A stretch of 64,000 nt of DNA from Paramecium tetraurelia. Lineage: Eukaryota; Ciliophora; Oligohymenophorea; Peniculida; Parameciidae. This document shows, piece by piece, positions 34,583 to 64,000 of the stretch. The number at the start of each line of letters is the position of its first letter. The first letter of the stretch is position 1. The DNA lies in contig NW_001799144.1 of the NCBI RefSeq assembly GCF_000165425.1, forward strand, positions 376,386-440,385, written 5' to 3'. The translations under genes and the position numbers were made by a program. The notes beneath the pieces are model-generated. The model saw nothing but the letters and a program-made list of their open reading frames with translations, did not search any database and was not told the origin of the DNA.

Positions 34583-37500
34583 ATGTTATAAATCGAAGTT
34601 ATTTGTTTTGGATTAGCCATTGAAGTTGAGAGACTTTAAGCACTTACACAATAACTCTAATAGGACATTGCTCAAGCTAATCAACTCAATAAAGTTCATC
34701 TGAACACAATTGATTAAAATAGTATTCATATCCAACATCTAACCAGAAAACTAGATGAACTCAAAAGAAACAAAAATCAATTAGATTCAGATTATAATCA
34801 ATTGAAATCACAACATGATTACGTTATTGATATTATTTCGCAAATTACAGGTGATGAGTTGACCTTAGAAGAATTGACTGAATTAATTGAAGAGCTTAAA
34901 AGAAGATCCCTCAAATATGATGAAATCCAAGAACTCCTCAATGGACAAGATATAAATGAGATTATTTCTAACTCAGAATAGTTAATAATCTAGCATAATA
35001 TTAACCAAGAATTGAAAGATTAATTAGAGCAATATCCCTAAATTGTTATAAGTCTAAATCAAGATATTTAAAAACAAAAACTAGAAATCTAAAATCAAAA
35101 ATTATAAATAAATCAATTAACACAATAAAATTCGTAACTTGAAGTCCAAATTGCTTCATCATAATCAACATTGGATTAACGCCAAAATTCTAATTAGCTT
35201 TTTCATTCCACTCAGTTAAATTAATAAGAATAAAATGAAAAATAGTTAATTGAATTAAAGAATAAAGTAATCTCTTTAGAACAATAAAATAAATGGTTGA
35301 ATGAAGAAATGTAATCTATTTCCAATCTTAAAATCCAAATTGAAGGCAAACTTAGAAATTCTCTCCTAGATTAAAATAAACTGTTATCTGAAAAAGAAAA
35401 ACTCGCCAAAGAAGCCTTCTATTTAGTTAGCATATCTAATAACTTCAAAACACAATTACAAAATAAATAAGCTACCATTGAAGAACTTACAAATGAAATA
35501 TCATCACTGTAGAATTAAATCAAAAACAAAGATGATCCTAATGAAGCATTATTAAAATAAAATAAGGACTTAGAAAGTTTTAAATAATAAGAGATTAACA
35601 ATTTGAATTAGGAATTATCATATAAAACTCAAGAAATCTAAGAAATAAGTCTTTAAAATTTAAGGTTGAATGACGAAATAGAAAAACTTAATGAATAACT
35701 TAAAAATTCTTTAAAAGTATCTCAACATTCTAAAGAATTCTCTCAATAAATATAAATAATACAAGATAAATTAATTTAGAATAAAAATATTATGTAAATG
35801 CAAGATAACCATTTATAACTTTTACAATAATAGTCAATGAATGATAAAAAAGAATTATAATAACATTACGTAGGAATTATTGATAAATTAAATGGAGATA
35901 ATTTCAAACTCAAATCATAATTAGATGAATCATAAAATAAAATTAACAAATTGGAAGATCAATTAGTAGAAGTCTAAAGTGAATTTTAAGAAATTAAAGA
36001 TCTCTTAGATTCCAAATAAGTTGAAATACTTAAATTAAGTATTATTAATAAGAAGATCTAAGAATCTAATGAAAAATATCTTCAGCAAAATTAAGAGTTA
36101 GAAGAATAAAATAGACAATTATAGTTTAAATACAGCTCTTCTTAAAAAAGTAATCAAGAAAGCTCTAGATCATCATCAGATTATGTGAAATCATAAATTT
36201 TGGATAAATTAAAATCAGAAAACTAATATTATTTATAAGATAAATATAAATTAGAGTTATAAAATTAAGAATTGCTCGACCAAATAGCTTCAATGAAATC
36301 TGAGATAAATAAATATTAGATATAAATAACTAATTTAACTGTGTAAGTTGAAAATGCGTAATTTCAATATGCAAATGAATAGAGTAAAGAAATTAGCTCA
36401 TATAAATAATAACTTTAATAAACAACTAAATAAATAAATTAATTATAACAGAGGACAGAACAACAAACTCTAACTATCTAATAATAAAATACAAAAATTC
36501 AACAGTTTGAAAATGATTATTTCTGCTGTGAAGAAAAATTTAAGCTTTAAATTCTATAAATTTAGGAAAAAGAGTTTTTTATAAGAGAGTTATAATAAGA
36601 ATTACACCTATATAGCAATTAAATTAAAAAAATGGAAAAAGAATTAAATATATTATAAATTGATAATGAAAATAAAATCTAAGAAAATAATGATCTCACA
36701 AAATATATTGATAACTTAAGAACGGAATCAAAATTCAAAAATGAATAGATTAATACTCAATAATTACATGAAGTTAATATTTATAATAGTGAATTGCAGA
36801 TGCAAATTTAGTAGTTAAATGAATAAATTTCTTAAAAATGTTAGCTATTAGAATAAAAATGCCAGTTGATTGACAAATTTAATTTGAAAATTATGAATCA
36901 GAATGTAGAAATATGTTAACTGAAATAACAATTAACAATTCAATAAAAACAAATTAGATAATTTGAAAACAACCTTTAAACTTCTGAATAAATAGTTGAA
37001 ATAGAATAAATAGATAATAAGAAGATGAACGAGATCACTTAATTAAATATTAAATTGAGTAAAGTTATTGATGAAAAAGAACAAAAAATACTTTAATTCT
37101 AATAATAATTATAAGTAAAACAAGATAAACTTTAGGAAATGGAATAAATTCATTCAAAAACTATAACTTAGTAAACTGAATAAAAATCATTGTTTTAATC
37201 TCGATCAAATTAATTTTTAAAGTCTAAAATATCTTCTGAAACTCTCTTCTCATAGAATATTGAAGATGATCCTTATCAAAAACTCTTAATATTATAAAAA
37301 AAGTATAATGATATTCTTAAGGAAAATTCAAACTTAATAATTAATTCCCATTTAATTGAAGATTATAAAAACAAAATTGCTCTCTTGTCTTTGGAAGTTT
37401 CTAGATATCATAATTCCTAGAGAGGATTGTTAAATTCAAGAGAAAACCAAAAATAGGAAGATAATACTACAAACAAAACAAAAAGTTTGAGTTAAGATAA

Positions 37501-37684
37501 AGGAAATAATATGAAAACACAACAGTATATTGAAAAGAGCAATAAAGAATGTGATTTATATTGCTTGATAGTGTTATTGTTTGCAGAAATTGAATCTCTA
37601 AGAGCATAAGATGATCAACAAAAAATGATAGATAAATCAAAAGTGTAAAGAATTATAGATTATTATCGTTAGAAGCCTTAATGA
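34583..37684 (+). CDS. Large Gln-rich coiled-coil protein, about 1033 aa
   Basis: This is a single uninterrupted frame; start and stop (TGA 37682-37684) are in phase, and the TGA triplets checked near the 5' end all avoid it. Nearly the whole protein is predicted coiled coil, with heptads rich in Leu, Ile, Lys, Glu and very many Gln. The exceptions are a short loop near the start (DIISQITGDELTLEELTELI) and a less regular C-terminus (CDLYCLIVLLFAEIESLRAQ, then YYRQKPQ). Long coiled-coil proteins of this type are common in ciliates at basal bodies, the cortex and Golgi tethers; none can be chosen here. The in-frame ATG at 34583 precedes a slightly hydrophobic stretch, so a later start is possible. 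Its 3' part was copied twice downstream (see the relics). Confidence 0.75.
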
Positions 37685-37806
37685 TAATTATATATATTTA
37701 TTAATAATACTTTATTATTTGTAATTAATTTCATTAAATAATTATATTATATATATTAAATATTCTTATAATGTCCAAATATTTATTATGATTGTATATC
37801 ATTAAT

Positions 37807-40800
37807 TCATGAAAATAATTTGCTGTTTGCAACTTTGGGTTATTTTTTGTAAGAGACTAATTTCAAAACCCATTTGATTTTAAGAAACAGTTGTTTTGCA
37901 AAAATAATTCCGAGACACAAAATCAAAAAGGCCATCTAAATAAAACCTAAAGTAACTTTGCTTTCATAAGAAATAGAAAATTGATTAAAAATGCTGAAGT
38001 ATGGGAGTAAGCTTAAGCTAAATACTGCTAAAACACCTTCAACTATTAAGAATATAATTCTATCAAATTAAGAACATAATTTATATTTATAGATTATACA
38101 ACATTAAGTTATACTGCTAAAAGATATTAGTAAGCATTGCAAAATTTATTATTCTTAGAATAGTATTAATACTATATGGAAAAAGATGGTTCTGGAAATA
38201 TCTAAGGCAATAAATTTTAACTCTAACTTGGTGATATGACTTTTTTTTTGATTGCTGCATAAACTAAAAGATTTTAATAATAAGTTAATGAAGGTGATAA
38301 ATATTAAAGTTGCAAAAATGTTAGTTAAAATGCTTCTAAGATTATCTATTTGACTATAATGCAGTTACAAAATCACTTTAAATATTAAATCCCATGAGTT
38401 AACGTAAATAAGTTGTAGAATTTTATCATAATTCTAAAGATATCTTAGCTTCATTAATAATTTTAAGAAACTTTTACAAATTAGTATTACATTAATGATG
38501 ACAATAAAAATCTTTTATATAAAGATTTTTTGATCTAAAAGAATTCCAAAATATTTTCTTAATCTATATAATATATTGAACAGATTTTTGGCAAAAAAAA
38601 GGATTGTTACCAATACTAAACTTTAAATTAATTGAGGTAAAATATTAGTAAAAATATCAGCATCTACATTATATTATTAAAATTTCTCACTTAAATCAAC
38701 TTATTTTTCTTTTCTTGTTATTTTATTAACAAAATCATCAATTTAAAAAAAATGTAAATATGATGATATAGATAGCAATTCTTATGCTTAAAAATATATG
38801 TAGAGGTTTTCAGGGTAGTCAACGTTAATAAATCTTAAGAAAGATTAATATTACAATAAATTCAAGGTTTCAACCACAAGAGAGCTCTCACCAGAAACTA
38901 AAGAAATTACACATATTGATATGGCTCCAATCATAAATGCTTTATTAGATTTTTAAACCTAAATCGATACTTACCTTAATTTTTCAGACATTAATTTTGG
39001 TGTTTATAAATTAATTGACTAATTAGGATTAAAAAGAGTTTAATTATTTGAGTTAACAATTTCTTGATTCAACTAAACTAAAAGAACTGGTTTTGTTTAA
39101 AGTTGTACAAATAATTCAATTTAAACCTAATACTAAGCATGTTAAAGATCAAATGAGATATCTTAAATCGAATTGATCTTGAGTACCTTATAATACTTGG
39201 AATCTAAGTCGTTAATGCTTATGTCAAATAAATTTTTGTCTTTTTAAACCTAATCACTAAATTTGACTTCTTAATCAAATGTAATCTCTACATACTATAG
39301 AGCATAGAATTACATTTTATAAGTAAGTTTCATACTAGGTTTTTTAGAGTATGCACAATAATATTCACAGCATATCTTATGTTCTTTTAATGACAACCAT
39401 TCTGGATTTTAATCCAAATTAAATGTATTGTTATTGCTTGTATGATTGTTTTAAGTTTCTTCAATATTGCTAGAGTTAAGGTCATCATTTTCTATATTTA
39501 ACAAGCATTAGCTGTTTTATAAGGTATAGTCATTATCGCATAAAAAACATTCCCCTTGGTTGCATAATTGACAATATTTAGTACATTAAAATTTGCATTT
39601 ATAACATCCATCATAAGGAACATCATTCTCGTCATCACAATTTTCATTGCCTGCAACAATACCATCTCCACATTAAGTAAAACAATCATTACTATAATTA
39701 TCATAATACAATCCTATTAAACCTTCACATAATGTTAGTTATTCACAAATACTTTTTGATTGTACAAGTACTAAAGGTGCTTAACATAGTTTACACTTTC
39801 CAAATTAGCAATCTAAACATTCCATTTGACATTAATATTTACACTAGTAACAACCATCATATTTCAAATCATTGCCATCATCACAAACTTCATCGCTTGC
39901 TAGTATCTTATCACCACAAACAGAATTGCATGAATTACTTACAATATCCAAATAGAACCCTGAAAAGCAATTAGTACAAACTCCATAAGCACAGGACTTA
40001 CAATATTGAGGACACTAGAATTTACAATTTAAACAAGTGTCTAATTAGTATTCACTTCCATCGTCACATTCCTCCTCTTAAACTATAATACCATCTCCAC
40101 ATTTAGGCATACAATTATTACCATAATATCCAAATTCACATTTTAAACATTTGTAAAGCACACATTTTTTACAATTTTTAGGGCATTTATTCATATTATA
40201 ATCAATTATACATGTGTTGGTAAATGAATCAAGATATCCATGTTAACAAAATATGCATTTGTTATTATTTAATATTTTACAATTAGGCTATTCATTAATT
40301 GTAAGCAAGGGTTGAATTGGTTTACAAGAATTACTTAATTAATCCAATTGGTAATTAAGTTAACAAGATTGACATATTCCATTCAAGCAATTTTCACAAT
40401 GCTGAGAACACTAGTATTTACATTAGAAACACCCATCAAAATTAGTTTAATTTCCGTCATCGCATTCTTCATTTCCCACAACAATTGAATCTCCGCAAAT
40501 TGGATCACAAAGGAATAAGCCCAATTTCCACCCTTCTTTACATTCAAAACAAACACCATCAATACAACGTGTACAATTAACATCGCAAGTTTATTCACAA
40601 TTATTGTTACAACCATCATCATTAAATAGATTCTAATCATCACACTATTCCATATCTTCTAATATTCCATTTCCACATTGTGAAGGAAAATTGAAATCCT
40701 ATTCACTATCCATTTTTATGCAAATGAAAAATTCATTCAAGAAATAACCGCTGCTGCATAACTTACATACACCTGAAACACAATTAAGGCATGTGTCTTC

Positions 40801-43800
40801 ACATTTTGATAAGCATTTATTCTCAACCAAATTAAATTCTTAAAGACATTGTAAACATTCTCTATATATACATTAGATACAATTAACATCACATTCATGT
40901 CTACATTAATAGCAACCATCAAATTTTTCATTGTTTTAATCATCGCATTCTTCCCATCCAGTTACATATCCATCACCACATGAAGTTTAGCAAATCTATA
41001 ACTCTTAACTCAAATGCAAACTCATTTAACATTGCTATATTAAGGAGCATTTATCCTTATAAAGTTCATAATTTTAGGCACATTAAAAGCATTAACCATT
41101 ATAACAATGCACACAACTTTCTTAACATCTAGGAATACAATCTCCATACTCATTTAATTAAGAGTCTTCCTCACAAATTAAACATTCTCCATTTAAGTTA
41201 AATTAACATTCTGGAAATACATCAATTTCGTTTTGTTTTCCATAACAAAATCCATCTCTAAGTAAATGATTTAAATCACATTATTAACATAATCCTTTGA
41301 TACAATTTATACAGTGTTAACTACAAGAATATTTACAATAATAACAACCATCAAATTCGATATAATTATCATCTTCACAGTCTTCATCATAAACTATTAT
41401 TCCATCTCCACACTAAGATTCACAAGCATTATTATAATAATTAAAATAATATCCGTGTTCACATTCAGAACATTGATCTTCAAAATATAATTTACAGAAT
41501 TTTGGAGCATCAAACATGCAACTTAGGCAATTTTGATCATAAATTTCACATTGTTCATCATGTGTTAATATGCCATCTCCACAAAGTGAAATACAATAAT
41601 AATTATCATTTAAATAATAACCATTTTGACAATCGATACAATTATTTTCATTACAAGATGTACAATAATCAAAACAATAACTACAATATAAATCTGGAGA
41701 TAATTTAAGTTAGTATTGACAAAAACTCAATGGTGCTACTATTAAATTACACTTCTAGTCAGCATTTTCAAAATAGGCATAATCTTCACATTAAATACAA
41801 ATATTCCCAATTTATATAAGACAGTTTTCTATTATCATTAAATTATATTATAGAGAGTTAACACAATATTATTTGTTTGAGGATAAATCATATCCGTCAT
41901 TACATTGGTAACATATACCAAATTAACACAATTAGCAATTCAAATCACAAATAAAATTTACAGGATTAACAATTTTGATAAATCTGTATTGAAGAGTTAA
42001 TATCACATTATTCATTATTTTTCTATAGACCATCTCCACAGATAGAGTAACATTTAGATTATATTAATTAATAACCTTCTTAACAATTATAACAGATTCC
42101 TTAAAGACAATAAAGACAAGAGTCCTAACAACTAAATTGACAAAGATGGCATCCGTCTCCAATAATAAAATTACCATCATCACATTATTCATCTTAAGTT
42201 ATTATTTTATCACCACAAATTGAATAACATAAATTATCAATTCTATTGTAACCACTTTTACATTATAGACAACCAAGTCCAGTTGTACTACAAGTGAGAC
42301 AAGAAGATTAACATCTTGCTTAACAATTATTACAACCTTTATATGGTAGTATAAATGAGTTCTCGCATTCTTCACCAACCACAATCATAGAATCTTCACA
42401 AATTGGCTTACATATTTTTTGATCAGAAAGATAATATCCAGTAGCGCATTCTTCACATCTATCGTTTATACAACTTGTGCAAATAGTTGTTGGCTAACAC
42501 TAAAATTAACAAGAGCTACTACAACCATCGTAACTAAATGTATTGCCATCATCACATTGCTCATAGAAGAATCCATAAGGATCTACTACAACTAAGCCAT
42601 CTCCACATACATTTTCACAATAGTAAGATTTAGGATCAAAACCCAGGGAGTGCACAACTTAAGCATGTGTTGGTTGTATAATCACAAGATGAACAACCAA
42701 TTCTGCAGAAGTACTTACAATCTTTGCACCCATCCGTATCAGAAGTGTTTCCATCTTCACATTGTTCACTTCCAATTATTAGCCCATCTCCACATTTTTC
42801 TTTACATTACCAAGGAGTAATTAAAGGATCAATATACCAACCTCCAGTTGCACACTCAAAACATAGTCCTCTTATACACTTTGAACATGCAGGTTAGCAT
42901 TAATTTCCTACAACTTGAAAACATCCATCATATTAAATGGTATTGCCATCTTCACATTCTTCTATTCCTGTAATGATTCCATCTCCACAAACATCAGGAC
43001 AAGGTAAAGTAGTTAATAAATCACAAGTTACACAATAAGCTGGACATTGAAATTAACAATTATAGCATAAGTCATTAAGGATTGTATTATTATCTTCACA
43101 TTATTCATATCCTTTGATTTATAAATCTCCACAAATAGGTTGACATTCTCCAGATACTAATTGAAATCCAGTATCACAAGAACTACAAGTTATTGTATGC
43201 CATATCAATTAATTATTATTACACAATTTATGACATTCACTAAGAGATGGATCTTCTGTAATTGGACAATCTATAATATGATTATGAAATATACTTGTAC
43301 AAACATTACTTAATTCATAATAACCAGGTGCACAAACACATTTTAACCCTTTTAATAATCTATTTAAAGTAGAATTACATGTTAAACAGCCGTCAATTGT
43401 GGTTCTAAAGCATGTTAAGCATGATGAATGACAAGATGAACAAGTTTATGTTGCAAATTAATAAGACATCCCTGTTGGACATCTACACGTTGATCCTACT
43501 TTTTCAATATTAGGAATAGCATTGCATGTTAAACAGTCATCAGATGTTGGTCCAGTGCAAGTTTTACAAAATTAATGACATAGCTAACATTTAGGATCTG
43601 AAACAACTGGATAATATCCATCAATACAATTACATTACCCATTTGACAATTGTCTATTATTAATAGTCAAGCATTCTATACAATTAGTAGAACTTAAACA
43701 TTAATTACATTCAATAGGACAATTAAGACATTAATTTGAATCTTCATATTAATTCACTTTGCAGAAACATCCTAATTTAGATTAGGTATAAGTTGGTTAA

Positions 43801-45954
43801 CATGTTTAACAATCTAATTTAGATGTACAAGTTAAACAAGATGATGGACAAGTTAAACATCTAACAGATTCTTTATCATAATATTGATTACTCTAGCATT
43901 CTACTTAAGAAAATTTAACTATATTAGAATCATAAGTGCTGTTCCATTAAGTACATGTAGATTAATCTGAACATTATAAACAATAAGGTTAGCAATTATG
44001 AACAGCAATATAATAATTATAGTATGCACAATATGCCTTGATTGGTTCATTATTTGGACCAAAGCATTCCCAAGTTATTGTTAATGTATTTGCATTATGG
44101 TTGATTCTTTCATAAACAATTTAATATTTTGAACCATCAAAATTAGAGTAATGTTAATTTGCAGTTGATTTAGTGACTGGTGTATTACTCTCAATTGTAT
44201 ATATAAACTTCCCATCTGAAGGGAATGAAGGTCCATATAAAATATAAAATGCAATAGTAACACTGTGATGTGGATTGATTATATTATGAACCCTTTAGAA
44301 TTTAGCTTATGCCCATACAAAAGGTCCTCCAAAGACTCTAAATCTATACCAATATGAATAATAGATATCTGATCCACTTAAAAGGTTTGATCCACTTTGA
44401 GAGATTAAAGTATATTTTCCATAGTATTCTGGATCACCTTCTAAATCTAGATATTCTTAAACTAAATATTAAGAATCTATATATAATATAATATGATACA
44501 AGGTGTTTCATCATCATAATCATAGCAATATGAACCACTCAATCTCTAATATGGATATGAGCAACTGCTTACGCAACTACCATCTCGATAAAAATAGTAA
44601 CCTATTTCGCAAGTCTTACATTTAAATGATACTTCACACAATTCACAATATTAAGAGCAATATCCTGAAGTAATATCGACGTGAGACATTCCCCATCCTG
44701 ATGTACCATCACTAAACTACAAAATGATATTTACGTATAATTTCCTATTGCTGAAAATAGAAACGCATATTTCGGAATGTCAATAAATGAAATTAATTCA
44801 TATCTTACAGTCAAATACGAATATGTTGAAGCTGTTCCAAAGATATAAATAGAGGAGATTTTTGAATTATGGGTTTGAATTCCAGAAGCATTTCTATAAA
44901 TAGATCCGTAATAAGTATTGTTAATCTTAAACTATATTCCACAATTAATTGGAATTTCATTATAAAGCATAATTGTTATTTTCAATCCTATCAAAAAAGT
45001 GGAAGAAGAATAAGTAGACAATGAGTCGAAATATCTATAAACTCCAGAATTATACTTTAATACTCCTAATGCAAATAAATAAATATTAATAGCAGTTGGA
45101 GTTGTATCAACATGTTATGGATCATATATTAACGACCATTTGAAAATTTCATTACTATAGATTGAATCAAAAATATAACTACTTATTATACGGACAACTA
45201 ATATTAGTTAAAGATACATACTTGGATAAAATTAACAAAATCCATTATAATATAATGGAGACGTGATATCACAAATGTCTCTGCATCCTTCCTCCTTCCA
45301 ATAGTATTAAATTGATGGACAAGGTGGACATTAATTATTTGTTTGGATCCCATAATAGCAGCTTGTACATTAATTGTATTTTGGACCTGTGCATGAATTA
45401 CATGATGGATAGCATTTTAATCTTGAGACAAAGATATTTCTAATCGAAACTAAACCTGCATCTGTATTAGAGGATGTAAATTTCATTCTAGCATAAGTAC
45501 TACCTTCTGCTATTTGTAGTGTAAAATTTAAAGTTTTAACTTCAAAAGGAGTAGCATCACAAAATCCAGTTGTCAATAGATAAGTGGTAGGGGAATTATA
45601 AATATATGAATAAGAAAATGATCCTAAGGTAAATTAAACATTTTGAGAAGACCATGTACTCTGAAAATATAAATCCATAGATATCCAATCCTAATCATAG
45701 AATTATGGATTTATATAATTTAGGGCAGATGGAAAGGAATTACTTAAAGTAATATAGCTTGTGGGAGGAGTTGCACAAGTGATAAAATTTGCAGATGCTT
45801 AGCTTGAAGGCAATATAAAATATCCTGAACTTGAGCTTGGTTCAGCGCTCGTGGTAAATATCCAATCATTATCTAAGTACTTTTCCTTTATTTTCCATTA
45901 GCAATTTGAAGTATCAAGCAAGGTGAATAGGATGTAAATGATAATAATAGGCAT
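37807..45954 (-). CDS. Giant Cys-rich multi-pass membrane protein, copy 1 (DUF4215-like repeats)
   Basis: The start is ATG at 45954-45952 with a signal peptide (MPIIIIYILFTLLDTSNC); the stop is TGA 37809-37807. Introns are 44712-44734 and 44477-44499 (23 nt each). In order: a beta-rich N-terminal region; Cys modules of furin/TNFR style (CYPSCNSCTGPKYNQCTSC; CPSSCLTCTSKLDC); then roughly residues 970-2140 built of repeats on the pattern CGDGI...EECDDGN...DGCYxCKFxC, the DUF4215/Myxococcus Cys-rich type. An Asn/Gln-rich linker and about seven to nine hydrophobic segments at the C-terminus follow. A surface receptor or adhesion role is inferred. The frame has one extra base near 42637 (TGA after ALPGF) and another near 41953. 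Total length agrees with +2; the remainder is intact. Confidence 0.8.
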
Positions 45955-46173: not shown

Positions 46174-46620
46174 TTAATTTTGCAATAAGATATATGAAAC
46201 ACAAAATGAGAGATTCAATCTCTTAGATAAGATTTTCAAGATAACAATATCTTTTAACAATTTATAGTAAAAATAATGTACAATTAGAGAGTATATCTCT
46301 TTTTTGCTCTGTAATATCGTGTTGTTAATTGGAACTGCATATTTTTCAAAGAGTATAAAGATTAACATATTAATAATCATTAAAATGAACATTGCAATCA
46401 ACCAATTTTAGGGCATTTAACAATCTTGAAAATTGAAAATCAACTAAAATATATTTGTGTATAATACCTTAAAAATATCTTCAGCTAAAAATTCAGGATG
46501 TTATGAAAAGAAAAATACATAAAAATTAATTATAAAAGAATGATTAAAACATAAGTAAATCGAAAGTTTAAATAAAATTCTCTTCTAAATGGTTTTCCAA
46601 TTGATATTAAGGAATATTTC
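46174..46620 (-). pseudogene. 3' relic of a P-type ATPase-like gene
   Basis: The minus-strand frame reads IGKPFRREFYLNF, then hydrophobic segments (YVLIILLQLIFMYF), a candidate intron, then MFILMIINMLIFILFEKYAV, ending NLSFCVSYILLQN. This order (SxGKPFR..., membrane pairs, a Glu before the end) resembles the last two transmembrane pairs of P5-type ATPases. Nothing upstream continues it, so only the 3' end came along with the duplication. The ATPase assignment is tentative. Confidence 0.4.
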
Positions 46621-47633: not shown

Positions 47634-50600
47634 TCAAGAAAATAATTAACTACTTGCAACCTATACTTTCTTTTATTCACAAACTAACTTCCTAATTTTT
47701 TATATTTTTGGAAATAATTGTTTTATAAAGACTATTCCTAGGCTCATAATTAAAAAACCCATCTGAATAAATCCTAAAGCAATTTTGTTGTCATAAGACA
47801 AATAAACCTCTCCAATATCAAAATATAAAAATAAACTTAAACTAAATACCGTTAAAACACCTTCAATTATTAAGTATATAATTCTATCAATATGAGAGCA
47901 TAATTTATATTTGTAGATTATGCAACATTAAGCTATACTACTGATAGATATTAGTAAACATTGCAAAATTTATTATTCTTAGAATAGTATTACTATGATA
48001 TGGAATAGCGTAGCTCTGGAAATATCTAATGCAATAAATTTTATTTCAAGAGTTGCTAAAACATTTTTTTCCTTAGGATTGCTACATAAACTAAATGATT
48101 TTAATAACAAACTTATGCATGTGAAAAATATTAAACTAGCTAAAACAGTAGTTATGATACTTCTCAAATTGTCGATTTTACAATAATGAAGTTACAAAAT
48201 CACTTTAAATATCAAATCCCATGAGTTAACATAAATAAGTTGTATTATTTAATCATAATTTTATAAATATTTAGTTTTCATCAAAGATTTGAAGCATTTT
48301 TAAAAATTAATAGTAAATTAATCATTTGCAATAAAATCTTTGATAATAGTGTTTTTTGATGTTTAAGATGTCTCAAGTATTTAATTAATCTAAAAAGTAT
48401 ATTATATAGATTTTCTGCAAAATAAAGTAGTGTTACCAATACTAAAAATTAAATTAATTGGGGTAAAATATTGGTAAAAAGATCAGCTTCTACATTATAT
48501 TATTAAAATTTTCCATTAAGATCAATTTATTTTTCTTTTCTTGTTATTAAATTTAAATAATCATCAATTTAAAAAAGTTATAAATAAGATGATATAGATA
48601 GCAATTCTTATGCCTAAAAATATATGTAGAGGTTTTCAGGATACTCAACATTAATAAATCTTAAAAAAGATTGATATTACAATAAATTCAAGGTTTCAAC
48701 AACAAAAGAACTTTCACCAGAAACTAAAGATATTATACAAATTAATATTGCTCCGATCATGAATGCTTTATTCGATTATTAGGCATAATTAGATACTTAT
48801 TTGAGTTATTCAGACATTATTTTTGGTGTTTATAGAGTAATTGATTAATTACTATTAAAAAGAGTTTAATTATTTCCATTAATAATTTCTTGATTCAACT
48901 AAACTAAAAGAACTGGTTTTGTTTAAAGCTGTAAAAATAATTCAACTTAAACCTAATACTAAGCATGTTAAAGATCAAATGAGATATCTTAAATTGAATT
49001 GATTTTGATATTATAATACTGAGAATCTAAGTCCTTAATGCTTATGTTAAATAGATTTTTGTCTTTTTAAACCTCATCAATAAATTTGACTTCTTGATCA
49101 AAAGTAATTTCAACATACTATAGAGCAAAGGATTACGTTTTATAAGTAAGTTTCATACGAGGTTTTTTAGAATATACACATTCATATCCTCTGCATATCA
49201 TATCATCATTTAATGACAACCATTCAGGATTTTAACCATAACTTGTATTGTTATTAAAAGAATTAAGATCGTCTTATTCTGTATTTAACAAACATTTGTT
49301 ATTTGATAGGGCATAATCATTATTGCATTTAAGACATTCCCCTTTGTTGCATATTTGACAATGTAATGTACATTAAAATTTGCATTCATAACACCCATCA
49401 AATGGTAATTCATTTGAATCATCACATTCTTCATATTCATTAATTACAATTCCATCTCCGCAAATAGAAATACAAAAGTTATCTAAAGGCAAAAGTCCTA
49501 TTTAGCATTAAATACAATATTGTAAATCACATTTACTACAATAAGGTTTACACTTAAATTGACAATTAATACACCCCTCATTATCATCATCACATTATTC
49601 ATTTGAAAATGGAACCACTATGCCATCTCCACATTCTGGGTCACATAAAATATTAGTATTTACTAAAAAACCAAGAAAACATCCCTTGCAGTTTCCAAAT
49701 TAACCAATCCACGCAATTGATATCACATTAACATTCACAATTATAACATCCATCAAATGGATTAAGATTATTATCTTCACATTCTTCATTATCCATAATT
49801 TTAGAATCCCCACATACATTTAAATCATCATTACCAACAAATATAACTGTTATATGATTTGAATTGCATTAATTTTTGAATAAATAATTTCCTTATGAAC
49901 ATAAACCACATATCCCTTCTAAACAACTTATGCAATTAACATCACAATTTTAATTCAATTTTATACTATCTTGAATTTTTATCTATTAATCACATTATTC
50001 ATTATTTTTCTAAAGACCATCTCCACAGATAGAGTAACATTTAGATTATATTAATTAATAACCTTCTTAACAATTATAACAGATTCCTTAAAGACAATAA
50101 AGACAAGAGTCCTAACAACTAAATTGACAAAGATGGCATCCGTCTCCAATAATAAAATTACCATCATCACATTATTCATCTTAAGTTATTGTTTTATCAC
50201 CACAAATTGAATAACATAAATTATCAATTCTATTGTAACCACTTTTACATTTATAGACAGCCAAGTCCAGTTGTACTACAAGTGAGACAAGAAGGTTAAC
50301 ATCTTGCTTAACAATTATTACAACCTTTATATGGTAATATAGAAGAATTCTCACATTATTCACCAACCACAATCAAAGCATCTCCACAAATTGGTATACA
50401 TATTTTTTTATCAGAAAGATAATATCCAGTAGCGCATTCTTCACATCTATTATTTACGCAATTTATGCAAATAGTTATTGACTAACACTAAAATTAACAA
50501 GAGCTACTGCAACCATCATAACTTAATTTATTGCCATCATCACATTGCTCTGAATTGACTCCTGAAGGATCAACTACGGCTAAGCCGTCTCCACATACAT

Positions 50601-53600
50601 TTTAACAATAGTAAGATTTAGGAACAAACCCAGGGAGTGCACAACTTAAGCATGTGTTGGTTGTATAATCACAAGATGAACAGCCAATTCTGCAGAAGTA
50701 CTTACAATCTTTGCACCCATCAGTATCAGAAGTGTTTCCATCTTCACATTATTCACTGCCAATTATTAGCCCATCTCCACATTTTTCTTTACATTACCAA
50801 GGAGTAATTAAAGGATCAATATACCAACCTCCAGTTGCACACTCAAAACACTGTCCTTTTATACACATAGTACATGCAGGTTAACATTAATATTTACAAT
50901 TAAAACATCCATCATATTCAATGGTATTGCCATCTTCACATTCTTCTATTCCTGTAATGATTCCATCTCCACAAACATCAGGACAAGGTAAAGTAGTTGA
51001 TGAATCACAAGTTACACAATAAGCTGGACATTGAAATTAACAATTATAGCATAAGTCATTTAGGATTGTATTATTATCTTCACATTATTCATATCCTTTG
51101 ATTTATAAATCTCCACAAATAGGTTGACATTCTCCAGATACTAATTGAAATCCAGTATCACAAGAACTACAAGTTATTGTATGCCATATCAACTAATTAT
51201 TATTACACAATTTATAACATTCACTAAGAGATGGATCTTCTGTAGTTGGACAATCTATAATATGATTATTAAGTATACTTGTACAAACATTACTTAATTC
51301 ATAATAACCAGGTGCACAAACACATTTTAACCCTTTTAATAATCTATTTAAAGTAGAATTACATGTTAAACAGCCATCAATTGTGGTTCTAAAGCAAGTT
51401 AAGCATGATGAATGACAAGATGAACAAGTTTATGTTGCAAATTAATAAGACATCCCTGTTGGACATCTACACGTTGATCCTACTTTTTCAATATTAGGAA
51501 TATCATTGCATGTTAAACAGTCATCAGATGTTGGTCCAGTACAAGTTTTACAAAATTAATGACATAGCTAACATTTAGGATCAGAAATAATTGGATAATA
51601 TCCATCAATACAATTACATTACGCATTTGACAATTTTCTATTATTAGTAGTCAAGCATTCTATACAATAAGTAGAACTTAAACATTAATTACATTCAATA
51701 GGACAATTATAACATTAATTTGAATCTTCATATTAGTTCACTTTGCAGAAACATCCTAATTTAGATTAGGTATAAGTTGGTTAACATGTTTAACAATCTA
51801 ATTAAGATGTACAAGTTAAACAAGATGATGGACAAGTTAAACATCTTATAGATTCTTTATCATAATATTGATCACTCTAGCATTCTGCTTAAGAAAATTA
51901 AACTATATTAGAATCATAAGTGCTGTTCCATTAAGTACATGTAGATTAATCTGAACATTATAAACAATAAGGTTAGCAATTATGAACAGCAATATAATAA
52001 TTATAGTATGCACAATATGCCTTGATTGGTTCATTATTTGGACCAAAGCATTCCCAAGTTATTGTTAATGTATTTGCATTATGTTTGACTCTTTCATATA
52101 CTTTATCCTATTTTGTACCATCATAATCAGATAAATAATATTCTGCAGTTGATTTAGTGACTGGTGTATCACTCTCAATTGTATATATAAACTTCCCATC
52201 TGAAGGGAATGAAGGTCCATATAAAATATAAAATGCAATAGTAACACTGTGATGTGGATTGATTATATTATGAACCCTTTAGAATTTAGCTTATGCCCAT
52301 ACAAAAGGTCCTCCAAAGACTCTAAATCCTTACCAATATGAATAATAGATATCTGAACCTCTTAAAAAGTTCAATCCATTTTGAGAGATTAATGTATATT
52401 TTGCATATTATTCTGGATCACCTGCTAAATCTAGATATTCTTAAACCAAATATTAAGAGTCTATATATAATATTATATAATACAAGGTGTTTCATCAGCA
52501 TAATCATAGCAATAATAACCACTCAATCTCTAATAAGGAGATATGCAATCCTCTATGCATCTACCATCTCGATAAAAATAGTAACCACTTTTACAAGTCT
52601 TACATTTAAATGATACTTCACAAAATACGCAATCTTCATGGCAAAATCCTGAAGTAATTTCGATTTTCTAGATTGCCCATCCAGCTGTATTATCGCTAAT
52701 CTTAATATTGATATTTACGTATAATTTCCTGTTGCTGAAAATAAAAATGGATATTTTGGAATGTTAAAATATGTAATTAAGACATAAGTTTTGCTTGATG
52801 AATAGGTTAAATACGAACTAGATAATTAAGTTTAATAGATTTTGAATTTATGCGTTTGAATTCCGGATACATTTTTATAAATAGACCCTTAATAAGTATT
52901 ATTAATCATAAACTTAATTCCACAATTAATTGGAATGTCATTAAATGCAACAATTATAATTTTAAATCCAAAATGAGTGATATCCAGTAGAGTAAAGGAT
53001 ATTACGGAAAAAATCTATAGAAGCCTGAGTTAAATTTAAATATACCAAATAAGTATTTAATAAGTATTAATTTTGGGGAGGTGTCAATATTTTATGGATC
53101 ATATAATTCAAACCATTATAAATCTGAATACCTATTACCAATTTGAGCACTTTCTATTATTCTATCTATGATATTTTTATTAAAAATTTTACTTGTAAAT
53201 CTATTACAAAATCCATTTGAATAAAATGATTAATCTATATCACAAATATCTTTGCACCCTGAGTATTTTTCATAATATTAATTAGATGGACAAGAAGGAC
53301 AAATGTTATTTATAAGTGTACCTTCATAGCAACTAGTGCATTGGTTAAATTAAGGACCTGTGCAATCACTACATGATGGATAGCATATAAAAAATATAGA
53401 AGAGGTAACAAAATTTCTTATTGAAACTTAACCTGAATTAGTATTTAGGGATTTAAATTAGGGATAACCTGATTATAAACTTGGTATTGCAAATTTCCAA
53501 GTTTTGACTTCAAAAGGAATGGTATTGCAAAAACCAGTTGTCATTGGATAATTTGCAGGTGAAGTGTAGGTATATGTTTTTGAAAATGTTCCTATAGTAA

Positions 53601-53931
53601 ATTAAACATTTTAAGATAACCATGTACCATGAAAAAATAAATCTATAGACACATAATCTCCAACATCGTAAGTGCAACTTTCGTTATATTTAGCAGTTGC
53701 TTATGCATTATTTAAAGTGATGTAGCTTGTGGTAGGAGTTGTGCAATCGATAAAATTTGCAGGTGTTGAGCCTGACGACAATGTAAAATGCCAATATTAC
53801 CAAAATTCATTATATCTATCAGGAGTTGAGGTAAATATCTTATCATAGTATAGGAGTTGAGTCTTTGAATGCCATTATGATTTTGAAATAACAAGCAAGG
53901 CGAAAAGGATTTAAATGATAGAAATAGTCAT
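47634..53931 (-). CDS. Giant Cys-rich multi-pass membrane protein, copy 2
   Basis: The start is ATG 53931-53929 with a signal peptide (MTISIIQILFALLVIS); the stop is TGA 47636-47634, giving the same ending (SSQLFS) as the other copies. Introns are 52696-52718 and 52461-52483 (23 nt each). The domain plan matches copy 1 but the protein is shorter (about 2080 codons), with fewer DUF4215-like repeats. Its N-terminal 300 residues are the most divergent of the three copies. Apparent +1 shifts lie near 50250 (CTATAAATG versus CTATAATG in copy 1) and near 49705 (TGGTTAATTTGG). Whether it is expressed cannot be told. Confidence 0.7.
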
Positions 53932-55744: not shown

Positions 55745-56500
55745 AATGTAATTTGAGAATTATGAATCAGAATGTAGAAATATGTTAACTGAAATAAAAA
55801 TTAGCAATTCTAGAAAGAAAATTCGAACATTTAAAAACAATTCTTAAACTTTTGAATAAAGAGTTTAAATAGAATAAATAGATAACCAGTAAATAACGAA
55901 AGAACTTAATTAAATATCAGGTAAATTAGCAAAGATATTGATGAAAAAAAACAAAAGTTCTTATTATAATAACTTAATTAATCTGTATCATAAATAATTT
56001 GAGGAAATGGAATAAAACCAATAAAAAATTATACCTTAGTAAATGAATAAAATCATAATTTTAAAATTGATCAAGTTAATATTTAAAATCTGAAATATCT
56101 TCTGAAACTCTCATACCATAAAAGTTTGAAAATGCTTATCATAAACTCTAAGAATTATAAAGCAATTATGATGATATTCTAACTTATAATTAATTACTGT
56201 TAAATATAAGATAATAGCAATAAATTTACTGTGTTGTCTTTTGAAGTTTGTTGATATCGTAATTCTTAATAATGATTGTTAAGTTCAAAGAATTATAGAA
56301 ATGAAGATAATACTTTAAAAAATACGAAATGTTTGAGCTAAGATAAAAAAAAATAATACGAAAACATTATAGTATATTGTTAAGAGCAAAAAAGAATACG
56401 ATTTGGATCTCTTAGAAAAATAAATGATCAAAATATAATAGATAAATCGAAGCGAAAAGAATTATTGATAATTATTGTTTGAAACCTTAATGATAATTAT
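55745..56500 (+). pseudogene. Relic of the 3' part of the coiled-coil gene (second, longer)
   Basis: It aligns with about 36880-37710 of the intact coiled-coil gene, including TATGAATCAGAATGTAGAA and, at the end, the original stop region CCTTAATGATAATTATATA plus 3' flank. It starts further upstream than the first relic and keeps the 3' end. The frame is broken many times. It sits beside the 3' end of Cys-rich copy 3. Confidence 0.8.
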
Positions 56501-56612
56501 ATATATTTACTTATAATACTTTATTCTTACTTCATAAATTGATTAAATAAATATATCATAATATTAAAATATAATTTTAGTTTAAACATTTATTATGATT
56601 AAATACTTTGTC

Positions 56613-59600
56613 TCAAGAAAATAATTAACTACTTGCAACCTTTACTTTCTTTCCTTTAAAAACTAATTTCCAAATATTTTTGACAAATGGAAATAATTGT
56701 TTTACACAAACTATTCCGAGACTCATAATTAAAAAGCCCATATGAATAAATCCTAAGGTAATTTTGCTTTTATAAGAAATATAAAGCTGACCAATATCAA
56801 AATATAAAAATTAACTTAAACTAAATACTGTTAAAACACCTTCAGTTGTCAAGAATATAATCCTATTCATATAAGAGCATTATTTATATTGGTAGATTAT
56901 ATAACATTAAGCTATATTACTCAAGGATATTAGTAAGAATTGCAAAATTTATTATTCTTAGAATAGTATTAAGACGACATGGAAAAAGAGAGTTCTGGAA
57001 ATATCTAAAGTTATAAATTTTATGTCTAGCTATTCTATAAAATATTTTTCCTGTGGATCACTACATAAACTAAAAGATTTTAATAGTATGCTTATGCAAG
57101 CAAAAATTATTAGACTAGCAGAGAAAGTGCTTAAAAAGCTTCTCAAATTGTCTATTTGAATATAATGAAGTTATAAAATCACTTTAAATATCAAATCCCA
57201 TGAGTTAACGTATATGAGTTATATTATTTAATCATAATTCTATAAATATCTAGTTTTCATCAAAGATTTGAAACAATTTTTGCAAACCAGTATTAAATTA
57301 ATCATCACAAATAAAATTTTAGATTGTGATGTTTTTTCATTTTTAAGATGTCTCAAGTATTTAATTAATCTAAAAAGTATATTATATAGATTTTCTGCAA
57401 AATAAAGTAGTGTTACCAATACTAAAAATTAAATTAATTGGGGTAAAATATTGGTAAAAAGATCAGCTTCTACATTATATTATTAAAATTTTCCATTAAG
57501 ATCAATTTATTTTTCTTTTCTTGTTATTAAATTTAAATAATCATCAAATTAAAAAAGTTATAAATAAGATGATATAGATAGCAATTCTTATGCTTAAAAA
57601 TATATGTAGAGGTTTTCAGGATACTCAACATTAATAAATCTTAAAAAAGATTGATATTACAATAAATTCAAGGTTTCAACAACAAAAGAACTTTCACCAG
57701 AAACTAAAGATATTACACATATTGATATTGCTCCGATCATGAATGCTTTATTCGATTATTAGGCATAATTAGATACTTATTTGAGTTATTCAGACATTAT
57801 TTTTGGTGTTTATAGAGTAATTGATTAATTACTATTAAAGAGTGATTAATTATTTCCATTAATAATTTCTTGATTCAACTAAACTAAAAGAACTGGTTTT
57901 GTTTAAAGCTCTAAAAATAATTCAATTTAAACCTAATACTAAGCATGTTAAAGATCAAATGAGATATCTTAAATTGAATTGATTTTAATATTATAATACT
58001 GAGAATCTAAGTCGTTAATGCTTATGTTAAATAGATTTTTGTCTTTTTAAACCTCATCACTAAATTTGACTTCTTAATCAAAAGTAATATCAACATACTA
58101 TAGAGCAAATGATTAAGTTTTATAAGTAAGTTTCATACTAGGTTTTTTAGAGTATACACATTCATATCCTCTGCATAACATATTTTCATTTAATGACAAC
58201 CATTCAGGATTTTAACCATAACTTGTATTGTTATTATTACTTGCATTATTATTTTAAGTTTCTTCAGTATTGCTAAGATTAAGATCATCATTTTCTTTAT
58301 TGAACGAACATTAGTTATTTTATAAGGTATAGTCATTTTGGCATTAAAAACATTCCCCTTAGTTGCATATTTGACAATATAATGTACATTAAAATTTGCA
58401 TTCATAACATCCATCATAAGGAACATCATTCTTATCATCGCAATATTCATTGCCTGCAACAATACCATCTCCACATTAAGTAAAACAATCATTACTCTAA
58501 TTATCATAATACAATCCTTTTAAATCTTCACATGATGCTAGTTATTCACAAATACTTTTTGATTGTATAAGTATTAAAGGGGATTCACATAATGTACACT
58601 ATCCAAATTAGCAATCTAAACATTCCGTTTGACATTAATATTTACACTAGTAACAACCATCATATTTCAAATCATTGCCATCATCACAAGCTTCATCGCT
58701 TGCTAGTATCTTATCACCACAAACAGAGTTGCATGAATTACTTACAATATCCAAATAGAACCCTGAAATGCAATTAGTACAAATTCCATAAGCACAGAAC
58801 TCACAATATTGAGGACAATAGAATTTACAATTTAAACAAGTATCTAATTCATATTCTCTTCTGTCATCACATTCCTCTTCCTAAACAATAATACCATCTC
58901 CACATTTAGGCATACACTAGTTTCCATAATATCCAAATTCACATTCTAAACATTTGTAATGCACACATTTTTTACAAGTTTTAGGGCATTTATTCATGTT
59001 ATAATCAATTATACATGTGTTGGTAAATGAATCAAGATATGGTGATAATTTCAGTTATTATTGACAAAGACTTTATGGTGCTACTATTAAATTACACATA
59101 TACTCAAAATTTTCAAAGTATACATAATCTTCACATTAAATGCAACTGTTTCCAATTTAAATATGACAGTATTCTATTATCATAAAACTATACTCTAGAG
59201 ACTTAATGCAATATTTTTTGTTTGAGGATAATTCATATCCGTCCTTACATTGGTAACATATACCAAGTTAACACAATAAGCAATTTAAATTGCAAGTAAG
59301 TTGACAAGATTAACAATTTTGATAAATCTGTAATGAAGAGTTAATATCACATTATTCATTATTTTTCTAAAGACCATCTCCACATATAGAGTAACATTTA
59401 GATTATATTAATTAATAACCTTCTTAACAATCATAACAGATTCCTTAAAGACAATAAAGACAAGAGTCCTAACAATTAAATTGACAAAGATGGCATCCGT
59501 CTCCAATAATAAAATTACCATCATCACATTATTCATCTTAAGTTATTATTTTATCACCACAAATTGAATAACATAAATTATCAATTCTATTGTAACCACT

Positions 59601-62600
59601 TTTACATTAGAGACAACCAAGTCCACTAGTACTACAATTGAGACAAGAAGATTAACATATTGCTTAACAATTATTACAACCTTTATATGGTAATATAGAA
59701 GAAATCTCACATTATTCACCAACCCACAACCAAAGCATCCCCACAAATTGGTATACATATTTTTTTATCAGAAAGATAATATCCAGTAGCGCATATTTTC
59801 ACATCTATTATTTACACAACTTGTGCAAATAGTTGTTGGCTAACACTAAAATTAACAAGAGCTACTGCAACCATCATTATTAATTGTATTGCCATCATCA
59901 CATTGCTCTGAATTGACTTCCCTGAAGGATCAACTACGGCTAAGCCATCTCCACATACATTTTCACAATAGTAAGATTTAAGAACAAACCCAGGGAGTGC
60001 ACAACTTAAGCATTTTTTGGTTGTATAATCACAAGATGAACAACCAATTCTGCAGAAGTACTTACAATCTTTGCACCCATCCGTATCAGAAGTGTTTCCA
60101 TCTTCACATTATTCACTGCCAATTATTAGCCCATCTCCACATTTTTCTTTACATTACCAAGGAGTAATTAAAGGATCAATATACCAACCTCCAGTTGCAC
60201 ACTCAAAACATAGTCCTTTTATACACTTTGTACATTAGGGTTAACATTGATATTTACAATTAAAACATCCATCATATTAAATAGTATTCCCATCTTCACA
60301 TTCTTCTACTCCTGTAATAATTCCATCTCCACAAACATCAGGACAAGGTAAAGTAGTTAATAAATCGCAAGTTAAACAATGAGCTGGACATTAAAATTAA
60401 CAATTATAGCATAAGTCATTAAGGATTGTATTATTATCTTCACATTATTCATATCCTTTGATTTATAAATCTCCACAAATAGGTTGACATTCTCCAAATA
60501 CTAATTGAAATCCAGTATCACAAGAACTACAAGTTATTGTATGCCATATCAACTAATTATTATTACACAATTTATAACATTCGCTAAGAGATGGATCTTC
60601 TGTAATTGGACAATCTATAATATGATTATTAAATATACTTGTACAAACATTACTTAATTCATAATAACCAGGTGCACAAACACATTTTAACCCTTTTAAT
60701 AATCTATTTAAAGTAGAATTACATGTTAAACAGCCATCAATTGTGATTCTAAAGCATGTTAAGCATGATGAATGACAAGATGAACAAGTTTATATTGTAA
60801 ATTAATAAGACATCCCTGTTGGACATCTACACGTTGATCCTACTTTTTCAATATTAGGAATATCATTGCAAGTTAAACATTCATCAGATGTTGGTCCAGT
60901 GCAAGTTTTACAAAATTAATGACATAGCTAACATTTAGGATCAGAAATAATTGGATAATATCCATCAATACAATTACATTACCCATTTGACAATTGTCTA
61001 TTATTAATAGTCAAGCATTCTATACAATTAGTAGAACTTAAACATTAATTACATTCAATAGGACAATTAAGACATTAATTTGAATCTTCATATTAATGTA
61101 TTGTGCAAGTACATCCTAATTTAGATTAGGTATAAGTTGATTAACATGTTTACACAATCTAATTTAAGATGTACAAGTTAAACAAGATGATGGACAAGTT
61201 ATACATCTAACAGATTCTTTATCATAATATTGATTACTCTAGCATTCTGCTTGAGAAAATTTAACTATATTAGAATCATAAGTGCTGTTCCATTAAGTAC
61301 ATGTAGATTAATCTGAACATTATAAACAATAAGGTTAACAATTATGAACAGCAATATAATAATTATAGTATGCACAATATGCCTTGATTGGTTCATTATT
61401 TGGACCAAAGCATTCCCAAGTTATTGTTAATGTATTTGCATTATGGTTGATTCTTTCATAAACAATTTAATATTTTGAACCATCAAATTTAGAGTAATGT
61501 TAATTTGCAGTTGATTTAGTGACTGGTGTATTACTTTCAATTTTATATATAAACTTCCCATCTGAAGGGAATGAAGGTCCATATAAAATATAAAAATGCA
61601 ATAGTAACACTGTGATGTGGATTGATTATATTATGAACCCTTTAGAATTTAGCTTATGCCCATACAAAAGGTCCTCCAAAGACTCTATATCCTTACCAAT
61701 AAGAATAATAGATATCTGATCCTCTTAAAAGGTTTGATCCACTTTGAGAGAATTAAAGTATATTTTCCATAGTATTCTGGATCACCTGTCTAAATCTAGA
61801 TATTCTTAAACCAAATTATTAAGAATCTATATATAAATATAATATGATACAAGGTGTTTCATCATCATAATCATAGCAATATGAACCACTCAATCTCTAA
61901 TATGGAGATGAGCAACTCCATATGCAACTACCATCTCGATAAAAATAGTAACCACTTTTACAAGTCTTACATTTAAATGATACTTCACACAATTCACAAT
62001 CTTTATGGCAAAATCCTGAAGTAATATAAACTAGTCTTAATCCCCATCCTGCTGTGCCATCTCTAAGCTACAAAATGATATTTACGTATAATTTCCTATC
62101 GCTTAAAATAAAAATGCTTATTTTGGAATATCAATATATGAAATTAGGTCATATTGTTTAGTCAAATACGTAACTGTTGAAGAAATTCCATAATTATATT
62201 GATAGGAGATTTTTGAATTATGGGTTTGAATTCCAGAAGCATTTCTATAAATAGATCCGTAATAAGTATTGTTAATCTTAAACTATATTCCACAATTAAT
62301 TGGAATTTCATTATAAAGCATAATTGTTATTTTCAATCCAATCAAAAAAGTGGAAGAAGAATAAGTAGACAATGAGTCGAAATATCTATAAACTCCAGAA
62401 TTATACTTTAATACTCCTAATGCAAATAAATAAATATTAATAGCAGTTGGAGTTGTATCAACATGTTATGGATCATATATTAACGACCATTTGAAAACTT
62501 CATTACTATAGATTGAATCATAAATATAACTAGTTATTATACGGCCAACTAATATTAGTTAAAGATACATACTTGGATAAAATTAACAAAATCCATTATA

Positions 62601-63299
62601 ATATAATGGAGACATGATATCACAAATGTCTCTGCATCCTTCCTCCTTCCAATAGTATTAATTTGAAGGACAAGGTGGACATTAATTATTTGTTTGGATC
62701 CCATAATAGCAGCTTGTACATTAATTGTATTTTGGACCTGTGCATGAATTACATGATGGATAGCATTTTAATCTTGAGACAAAGATATTTCTAATCGAAA
62801 CTAAACCTGCATCTGTATTAGAGGATGTAAATTTCATTCTAGCATAAGTACTACCTTCTGCTATTTGTAGTGTAAAATTTAAAGTTTTAACTTCAAAAGG
62901 AGTAGCATCACAAAATCCAGTTGTCAATAGATAAGTGGTAGGGGAATTATAAATATATGAATAAGAAAATGATCCTAAGGTAAATTAAACATTTTGAGAA
63001 GACCATGTACTCTGAAAATATAAATCCATAGATATCCAATCCTAATCATAGAATAAGTATTAATTAGAAGTTATTGCAGATGGATATACATTAGTTAAAG
63101 TAATGTAACTTGTAGGAGGAGTTGTACAAGTGATAAAATTTGCAGATGTTTAGCTTGAAGGCAATGTAAAATTTCCTGAGCTTGATCCTCCGCTTGTTGT
63201 AAATATCATATCAGTATCTAAAAAATTTTTATGTATTTCCCATTAACAATTTGAATTGTCAAGCAAGGTGAATAGGTAATAAATGATCGAAATAGTCAT
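56613..63299 (-). CDS. Giant Cys-rich multi-pass membrane protein, copy 3 (frame broken many times as given)
   Basis: The start is ATG 63299-63297 (MTISIIYYLFTLLDNSNC); the stop is TGA 56615-56613. Introns correspond to those in copies 1 and 2 (62063-62085, 23 nt; 61827-61850, 24 nt, one base longer). The N-terminal third is almost identical to copy 1 and the C-terminal third to copy 2. Compared with copies 1 and 2 it carries about ten small extra-base differences between 59715 and 61840, for example TTTACACAATC for TTTAACAATC and AAAAATGC for AAAATGC. All are insertions. It lacks the DUF4215-like repeats that occupy 40245-41690 in copy 1. It may be a pseudogene or poorly sequenced. Confidence 0.65.
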
Positions 63300-63539
63300 A
63301 AATAAATAAATAAATAATTAATAGAGTTAGAAATTTAAAATAGTAGAAATGCAAATAGCTTATAATTAGAATTTACCTATTAGAAATGATTTAACCTATT
63401 AAATAATACATTGTAAATAAGGATTCGATAATTATTATAATTATATTGATTTAACTTTTATAATGAATAAGTAATATCTATATATATATATTATATATTA
63501 TTTATAAATTAATTTTGCAATAAATAAAATATTTAAAAT

Positions 63540-63930
63540 ATGAAACACAAAATGAGAGATTCAATCTCTTAGATAAGGATTTTCAGGAAAACGATATCTT
63601 TTAACTATTTATCTCTTTTTTGCTCTGTAATATCGTGTTGTTATTGGAACTGCATATTTTTCAAAGAGTATAGTGATTATCATATTAATAATCATTAAAA
63701 TGAACATTGCAATCAACCATTTTTAGGGCATTTAGCTATCTTGAAAATTGAAAATCAACTAAAATATATTTGTGTTTAATACCTTAAAAATATCTTCAGC
63801 TAAAAATTCAGGATGTTATGAAAAGAAAAACACATAAAAATTAATTATAAACAGAATGATTAAAACACAAGTAAATCCAAAATTTGTATAAAATTCTCTT
63901 CTAAATGGTTTTCCAATTGAAAATGCTATG
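63540..63930 (-). pseudogene. 3' relic of a P-type ATPase-like gene, second copy
   Basis: Nearly identical to 46174-46620 over most of its length but with internal gaps (for example a missing segment near 63610), so the frame is more damaged. It lies beyond the 5' end of Cys-rich copy 3, mirroring the arrangement at copy 1. Confidence 0.4.
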
Positions 63931-64000
63931 CATTAAAATATGTATTGGAAACTTGAATATAAGAATAAACTCTAAATTAAATAATTAAATAAATTACAGT

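Follow-up and report, generated by a model that had tools for sequence, protein, structure and literature searches.

Tandem genes for giant cysteine-rich, putatively multipass proteins in Paramecium tetraurelia: members of a genome-wide family and candidate surface sensors

Introduction

The closest published counterparts of the genes described here are the "group 7" surface antigens of Paramecium and, in architecture, the cysteine repeat modular proteins (CRMPs) and the Tetrahymena proteins MTA, MTB and MRC1. The genes, called A, B and C, form a tandem array in a 64,000-nucleotide stretch of Paramecium tetraurelia DNA (contig NW_001799144.1, positions 376,386 to 440,385), hereafter the window. 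Each is predicted to encode a giant Cys-rich ectodomain followed by a multipass C-terminal module, and this module recurs at many places in the host genome, in some of them beneath a different ectodomain. By analogy with CRMPs and MTA/MTB/MRC1, we give a probability of roughly 0.45 to the reading that these genes encode CRMP-like surface contact or ligand sensors, which form a large family in Paramecium.

The classical surface antigens of Paramecium (51A, 51B, 156G and others) are Cys-rich proteins of ~2200 residues, encoded by a multigene family with tandem or intrachromosomal duplicates; they are anchored by glycosylphosphatidylinositol (GPI) and built from PF01508 repeats, which we take here as defining for these antigens (PMC9788069). 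Expressed antigens are reported at chromosome ends, and the role of variable surface antigens in a free-living ciliate is called unsolved (PMC9788069). Group 7 includes transmembrane (TM) Cys-repeat proteins, several per genome, in which two or more TM segments are predicted and for which no data on expression, localisation or function are reported (PMC9788069).

CRMPs are described from Tetrahymena (CRMP1/2), Toxoplasma (CRMPa/b) and Plasmodium (CRMP1-4). They carry a signal peptide, Cys-rich modules resembling EGFR and furin, and a C-terminal multipass core with five predicted TM segments in Tetrahymena and nine in apicomplexans, with the adhesion domains outside and the C-terminus inside; exocytosis needs them in both Tetrahymena and Toxoplasma (PMC9670195, PMC9815656). 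HHpred placed a GAIN domain in the Tetrahymena CRMPs, and in early 2023 CRMP homologues were without an experimental structure (PMC9815656). MTA, MTB and MRC1 are giant membrane proteins that combine a growth factor receptor (GFR)/furin-like domain with a C-terminal part of five TM helices (PMC3608545, PMC10901506). Our literature search found no paper joining DUF4215, the repeat domain of the window proteins, with Paramecium or with a ciliate. The protein of PMC10974281 was considered and set aside as kinase-like and unrelated.

Three tandem genes and their ectodomains

The three genes occupy the minus strand of the window from 37.8 to 63.3 kb and are read with the ciliate genetic code (table 6), TAA and TAG standing for Gln. 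Read with table 11 (starts ATG, GTG or TTG), the window holds a single open reading frame of at least 150 amino acids. When minus-strand frames were compared with each other and pairs above 38% identity and 60 bits were listed, long collinear matches joined the intervals 63.5-56.2, 54.1-47.3 and 46.6-37.3 kb. Gene C (56613..63299, with its TGA stop at 56613-56615), gene B (47634..53931) and gene A (37807..45954) begin near 63299, 53931 and 45954, respectively, with short hydrophobic N-termini that look signal-like from hydrophobicity alone. The models, which are spliced at short introns and read through frame breaks with a few stretches misread, give proteins of ~2179 residues for C (183 Cys), ~2066 for B (176 Cys) and ~2676 for A (266 Cys), a Cys content of 8-10%.

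Two introns are shared. One, a GTA..TAG intron of 23 nt, has equal place and length in all copies (C 62063..62085; B 52718-52696; A 44734-44712), and the other (A 44477..44499, 23 nt; B 52483-52461; C about 61850-61827) is one base longer in C. Introns of this type, like telomeres of the CCCAAA/CCCCAA type, are typical of Paramecium. Raw counts of GTA..TAG spacing gave no peak near 25 nt, which by itself would speak against Paramecium; the shared 23-nt introns, the use of TAA and TAG for Gln, the PF01508 genes and CCCAAA/CCCCAA repeats at some contig ends outweigh this and mark the genome as Paramecium-like. These data bear out the original prediction in its three tandem copies of about 2100-2700 residues with hundreds of Cys; its signal peptide is upheld as a predictor-free reading of all three N-termini, and the end of the array, put at 37104, moves to 37807.

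Behind the signal-like segment, the N-terminal ectodomain of C (62088..63275) gave nothing over the Pfam cut-off and 45 matches in the genome, among them the window copies and genes split into two pieces. It is followed by an array of DUF4215 (PF13948) repeats, with limits set approximately by eye at 58380..60490 in C, about 51130-49400 in B, where it is shorter, and 43146-39577 in A, where it is longest (nine matches in the long reading frame). DUF4215 was the sole Pfam family over the cut-off in the scanned pieces of the three genes, with E values of 4.1e-48 and 6.9e-27 for C, 8.7e-42 and 6e-17 for B, and 6e-73 and 2.5e-23 for A. The repeats had been proposed together with furin/TNFR-like modules, for which GF_recep_IV reached E 0.0025 and Furin-like E 0.37-1, all weak matches under the cut-off. 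Neither Kringle nor PF01508 was matched when window pieces were scanned with Pfam (for PF01508, five pieces at E ≤1 and six at E ≤10).

A conserved module across the genome

The genes end in a C-terminal module, which in C (56616..58199, 528 aa) comprises a juxtamembrane stretch in which two Cys are almost invariant, hydrophobic segments and a basic tail. The module of A (37810..39396) has an intact frame and is 74% identical to that of C; the module of B (47637..49219) is in two pieces owing to a frame break. In the host genome (69.07 Mb, 231 contigs), the C module found 58 matches, and three more distant members used as queries found 77, 79 and 68. Merged by hand, the matches define 95 distinct places, fragments and stop-containing frames included. 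A still more distant kind, represented by loci L065, L066 and L067, matches the module profile with E values of 5e-26, 8e-29 and 3e-40 and strong composition bias. L066 as query retrieved 13 loci of its kind, one of them counted before, which with L067 brings the total to ~108 places. Judged by sequence, A, B and C belong to this genome-wide family and are not an isolated new one. As for the possible new surface-receptor family that had been suggested, the architecture speaks strongly for a multipass protein with a very large Cys-rich ectodomain; the novelty is reduced by the family and by group 7, already published.

Forty-five modules, namely those covering at least 360 of 434 profile positions within one open frame, align with a mean column identity of 35%, with two invariant (Phe338, Gln420) and 18 nearly invariant columns and the consensus LQYQSYLKYINVxxPxNLxIYF. 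Their averaged hydropathy shows seven clear peaks (residues 158, 267, 364, 404, 427, 456, 489) and one weak peak (residue 333). Individually, members have 4-9 peaks at the threshold used (6-9 in 42 of 45, 5-9 in 44, four in one), and a stricter threshold left 3-7 C-terminal peaks in four relatives, of which L045 is incomplete. Basic charge marks the tail and the loop that follows the second peak, and acidic charge the outer part and the long loop separating the first two clear hydrophobic segments. Outside ciliates, searches of viral and genome contigs gave 66 and 72 hits of one short peptide pattern, none confirmed by tblastn at 1e-3.

The module and DUF4215 go together. When the best 150 of 812 candidate DUF4215 matches in the genome were scored, 121 of these 150 had a module within 9 kb downstream on the same strand, and none had one with strands flipped. 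By hand count, 20 of the remaining 29 precede modules of the L065/L066/L067 kind. Seen from the other side, at least 53 of the 95 module places have DUF4215 upstream.

The C-terminal module is under purifying selection. In ten chosen pairs, the ratio of nonsynonymous to synonymous substitution rates (dN/dS) was 0.18-0.37 for the module and 0.25-0.76 for the 410 residues before it in nine of them, the tenth being saturated. In another set of pairs, with whole or first-part modules, it was 0.22-0.37, with 0.33 for A versus C; pairing C with the second module part of B gave 0.52, over a stretch that is partly out of frame from B's frame break. Two ectodomain blocks compared between C and A gave 0.47 and 0.71. 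Given recurrence at 95 places together with this constraint on the protein, the pattern exceeds chance.

The same module beneath surface-antigen ectodomains

Eleven loci (L039-L049) were fetched with long flanks, and all except L044 yielded a usable module frame. In five of these ten, PF01508 precedes the module. L040, L042, L043 and L045 each consist of one stop-to-stop frame of 2305-2536 codons (L045 ends with its stretch) containing 18-19 PF01508 stretches (E 6e-86 to 2.5e-100) plus the module; three of the four also have three DUF4215 stretches each, and L043 has none. In L049, PF01508 is spread over two frames (5 + 11 stretches), and DUF4215 is present as well. L039, L041, L046, L047 and L048 have DUF4215, and PF01508 was not found in the six frames and nine further Cys-containing frames scanned. 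The genome holds many PF01508 matches (the best 150 of 1370 candidates were scored). Since the module follows PF01508 in five relatives, and scans of the window genes gave no PF01508 match, Cys-rich ectodomains of more than one kind sit on a single module.

A tree built from 50 modules intermixes PF01508-bearing and DUF4215-only members within one clade (support 0.96), with L047 and L049 joined at 0.996, L043, L039 and four others at 0.916, and one inner node at 0.34. This mixing suggests that ectodomains have been exchanged, gained or lost on a common module. L065 (C149:471500-474300), which lies inverted on the same contig ~30 kb past the window, combines a similar N-terminal ectodomain (64% identity) with a distant C-terminal module (LDILTWINNFYFLNVDYPLNV); it may be a further hint of such exchange. 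Against the PDB, the Cys-rich DUF4215 stretch of L066 matched pappalysin-1 below significance (E 4.7 and weaker). Another relative (C180:451450-455827) has a similar N-terminal ectodomain (33% identity) and a DUF4215 match ~400 bases from the end of its contig; either it has no membrane module or the contig does not reach that far.

The predicted products resemble group 7, as described (PMC9788069), in being large Cys-repeat transmembrane proteins of Paramecium. L040, L042, L043, L045 and L049 carry PF01508 before the module, whereas the window genes have DUF4215. From the classical antigens, which they resemble in size, Cys content, multigene nature and tandem duplication, the window genes differ in being multipass by hydropathy rather than GPI-anchored, and in the PF01508 repeats not found in them.

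Candidate surface sensors or anchored antigens

A receptor-like role is our best reading of this architecture, by way of CRMPs and MTA/MTB/MRC1. Like CRMPs, the window family has a signal-like N-terminus, a large Cys-rich ectodomain and a putative multipass core whose hydropathy peaks (5-9 in 44 of 45 members) span their TM numbers; unlike them, it has DUF4215 arrays, no Kringle match in the pieces scanned, and about a hundred places in one genome. MTA, MTB and MRC1 differ in being few genes, MTA and MTB being mating-type specific, and the window family mostly has more hydrophobic peaks than their five helices. In such a sensor, the Cys-rich ectodomain would stand out from the surface of the cell or cilium and bind partners, prey, bacteria or ligands in solution. 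The module, whose tail is basic and hence probably cytosolic, would relay the event inward, perhaps by way of Ca2+ or by controlling exocytosis, as proposed for CRMPs and, in mating, for the MTA/MTB complex. Ectodomains would vary as repeats are gained and lost, as tandem copies exchange sequence and as domains are swapped, and the module would be kept.

Several points weigh against this reading. The likeness to CRMPs and to MTA/MTB/MRC1 is drawn from described architecture, and we infer surface exposure, a ligand and signalling for A, B and C. The ectodomain before the module does not regularly evolve faster: its dN/dS was higher in five of nine pairs, equal in two and lower in two. Pfam gave nothing significant for the 45 modules (14 families at E ≤1, the best at 0.012), and the PDB had no match at E ≤10 to the module sequence or to the 45-member profile. 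GAIN, seen in Tetrahymena CRMPs, is absent from those 14 families, as far as Pfam profiles detect it. AlphaFold2, run on four window sequences, returned a worthless model (predicted local distance difference test 34), which lends no support to a fold of the channel or G-protein-coupled receptor type. The seven to nine C-terminal segments of the original prediction hold as hydropathy (seven clear peaks and one weak) and not by structure. All three copies contain small frame-breaking indels, and a plain anchor would give an equal architecture.

That plain anchor is the strongest alternative, and the sensor reading ranks ahead of it. A, B and C would then be membrane-anchored variant surface antigens or adhesins, in which the module merely replaces GPI and the Cys-rich part serves as coat or glue, without signalling. 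The occurrence of the module beneath PF01508 ectodomains and the tandem mosaic copies described below speak for it; an anchor, however, does not call for a multipass domain that is kept under constraint and has almost invariant residues, and PF01508 was not found in the window pieces. Position in the genome points both ways. Of 55 module places from the C-module search, 19 lie within 10 kb of a contig end, where a share of no more than 0.067 would be expected (binomial P 1.3e-9), and with equal weight given to 38 contigs of at least 60 kb the share near ends is 34% against 6.6% expected, reminiscent of the expressed antigens reported at chromosome ends (PMC9788069). The window copies, in contrast, lie 110-130 kb inside their contig. 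Telomere repeats (CCCAAA/CCCCAA) were present at two of four contig ends viewed. Among the matches listed, the telomere pattern occurred in 2 of 15 contigs with end-near members: in C100 at the member's end, and in the 10.8-kb C127 at the other end. Contig ends may therefore not be chromosome ends; an enrichment at chromosome ends is weakened by these counts, and we claim one at contig ends alone. Contigs may also break at the repeated family, as assembly breaks. Overall, we consider a mere anchor rather unlikely.

Mosaic copies and frame breaks

The copies are mosaics in which blocks of 91-98% identity alternate with blocks of 56-71%. DNA identity is 91-98% over 61.7-59.3 kb of C; B is 66-71% identical to C in its diverged N-terminal part and falls below 60% over some of the repeat array. 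Copy A carries ~1.5-1.7 kb of extra repeats. This pattern fits sequence exchange between copies together with repeat expansion.

The mosaic and the frame breaks, which in B also fall in diverged stretches, could instead mean a decaying tandem, with A, B and C as pseudogenes or a silent store for exchange between copies; the dN/dS of 0.52 for C against the second, partly out-of-frame part of B agrees with this. In C, small private insertions break the frame between 61817 and 59725. The block 61860-59600 has ten private insertions of 1-2 nt (one intronic), no private deletion and 51 private substitutions in 2249 columns; one private 1-nt deletion lies outside it, at 59299. The insertions mostly adjoin short base runs and stand where local identity to the sister copies is 88-98.5%, which looks more like an unpolished long-read consensus than like decay. 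In A, whose frame breaks near 42641, the three private insertions stand at 92-94% identity. The breaks of B lie near 50252 and in the C-terminal module, and more private indels fall in its diverged stretches: of 11 private events, 50252 is at 95-97% identity, 48296 at 76-87%, and nine are in stretches no more than 73% identical, where the alignment cannot be relied on. Since other members of the family keep long clean frames, such as the uninterrupted 2305-2536 codons noted above, we favour consensus error in near-identical copies as the probable source of the breaks in C and A; those of B may be consensus error, extra introns or true breaks. With a module dN/dS of 0.33 for A versus C as well, decay appears improbable.

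Least probable of all is a TRP-like or polycystin-like cation channel, whose pore in the multipass module would be opened by contact or flow: PF06011 matched 2 of 45 members weakly (best E 0.021), and the acidic loop that separates the first pair of clear hydrophobic segments is long and holds a motif that we take to resemble fungal Flc/TRP proteins, but none of seven weak PF06011 matches in the host genome was over the cut-off and all lay at other places, TRP was not matched in three distant members (HMMER filters drop most weak matches), and the PDB gave no hit to the 45-member profile at E ≤10. Of the receptor or channel-like adhesion role once proposed, the receptor side survives by analogy and the channel side finds no support from profiles.

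Neighbouring genes

Upstream of C lies the 3' end of a P5B ATPase gene resembling ATP13A2 (63567..63998, minus strand), with a match to PDB ATP13A2 chains at E 4e-4 over 49 residues and no Pfam match at E ≤0.01. A duplicated 3' fragment of this gene precedes copy A on the same strand (46300..46589), and 63851-63615 and 46536-46300 share 85% protein identity. As the duplicated unit includes this 3' end, which looks truncated before A, the duplication breakpoint may fall inside the ATP13A2-like gene. The Tetrahymena mating-type complex also has P-type ATPases (MRC4/5), a likeness that is probably coincidence.

Downstream, copy A adjoins a plus-strand open frame (34343-37684) of 1113 codons, 122 of them TAA or TAG read as Gln, without a Pfam match at E ≤0.01. 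Ordinary genes recognised by Pfam elsewhere in the window encode a class II tRNA synthetase of Thr type (6403-8601), an EF-G-like GTPase (12316-13590), a WD40 protein (22467-24198), a cNMP-binding protein (25132-26193) and a ubiquitin hydrolase with a DUSP domain (30861-32276).

Conclusions

A broader scheme, tentative and on balance unlikely, would make the module a conserved multipass transducer serving as chassis, on which antigen-type PF01508 and receptor-type DUF4215/GFR-like ectodomains are swapped; part of the "antigen" system would then be a large repertoire of receptors of the CRMP or mating-receptor kind. The family offers a ciliate look-alike for CRMPs and mating-recognition proteins. 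A constrained module shared by antigen-type and DUF4215-type ectodomains makes the idea of antigens as receptors testable.

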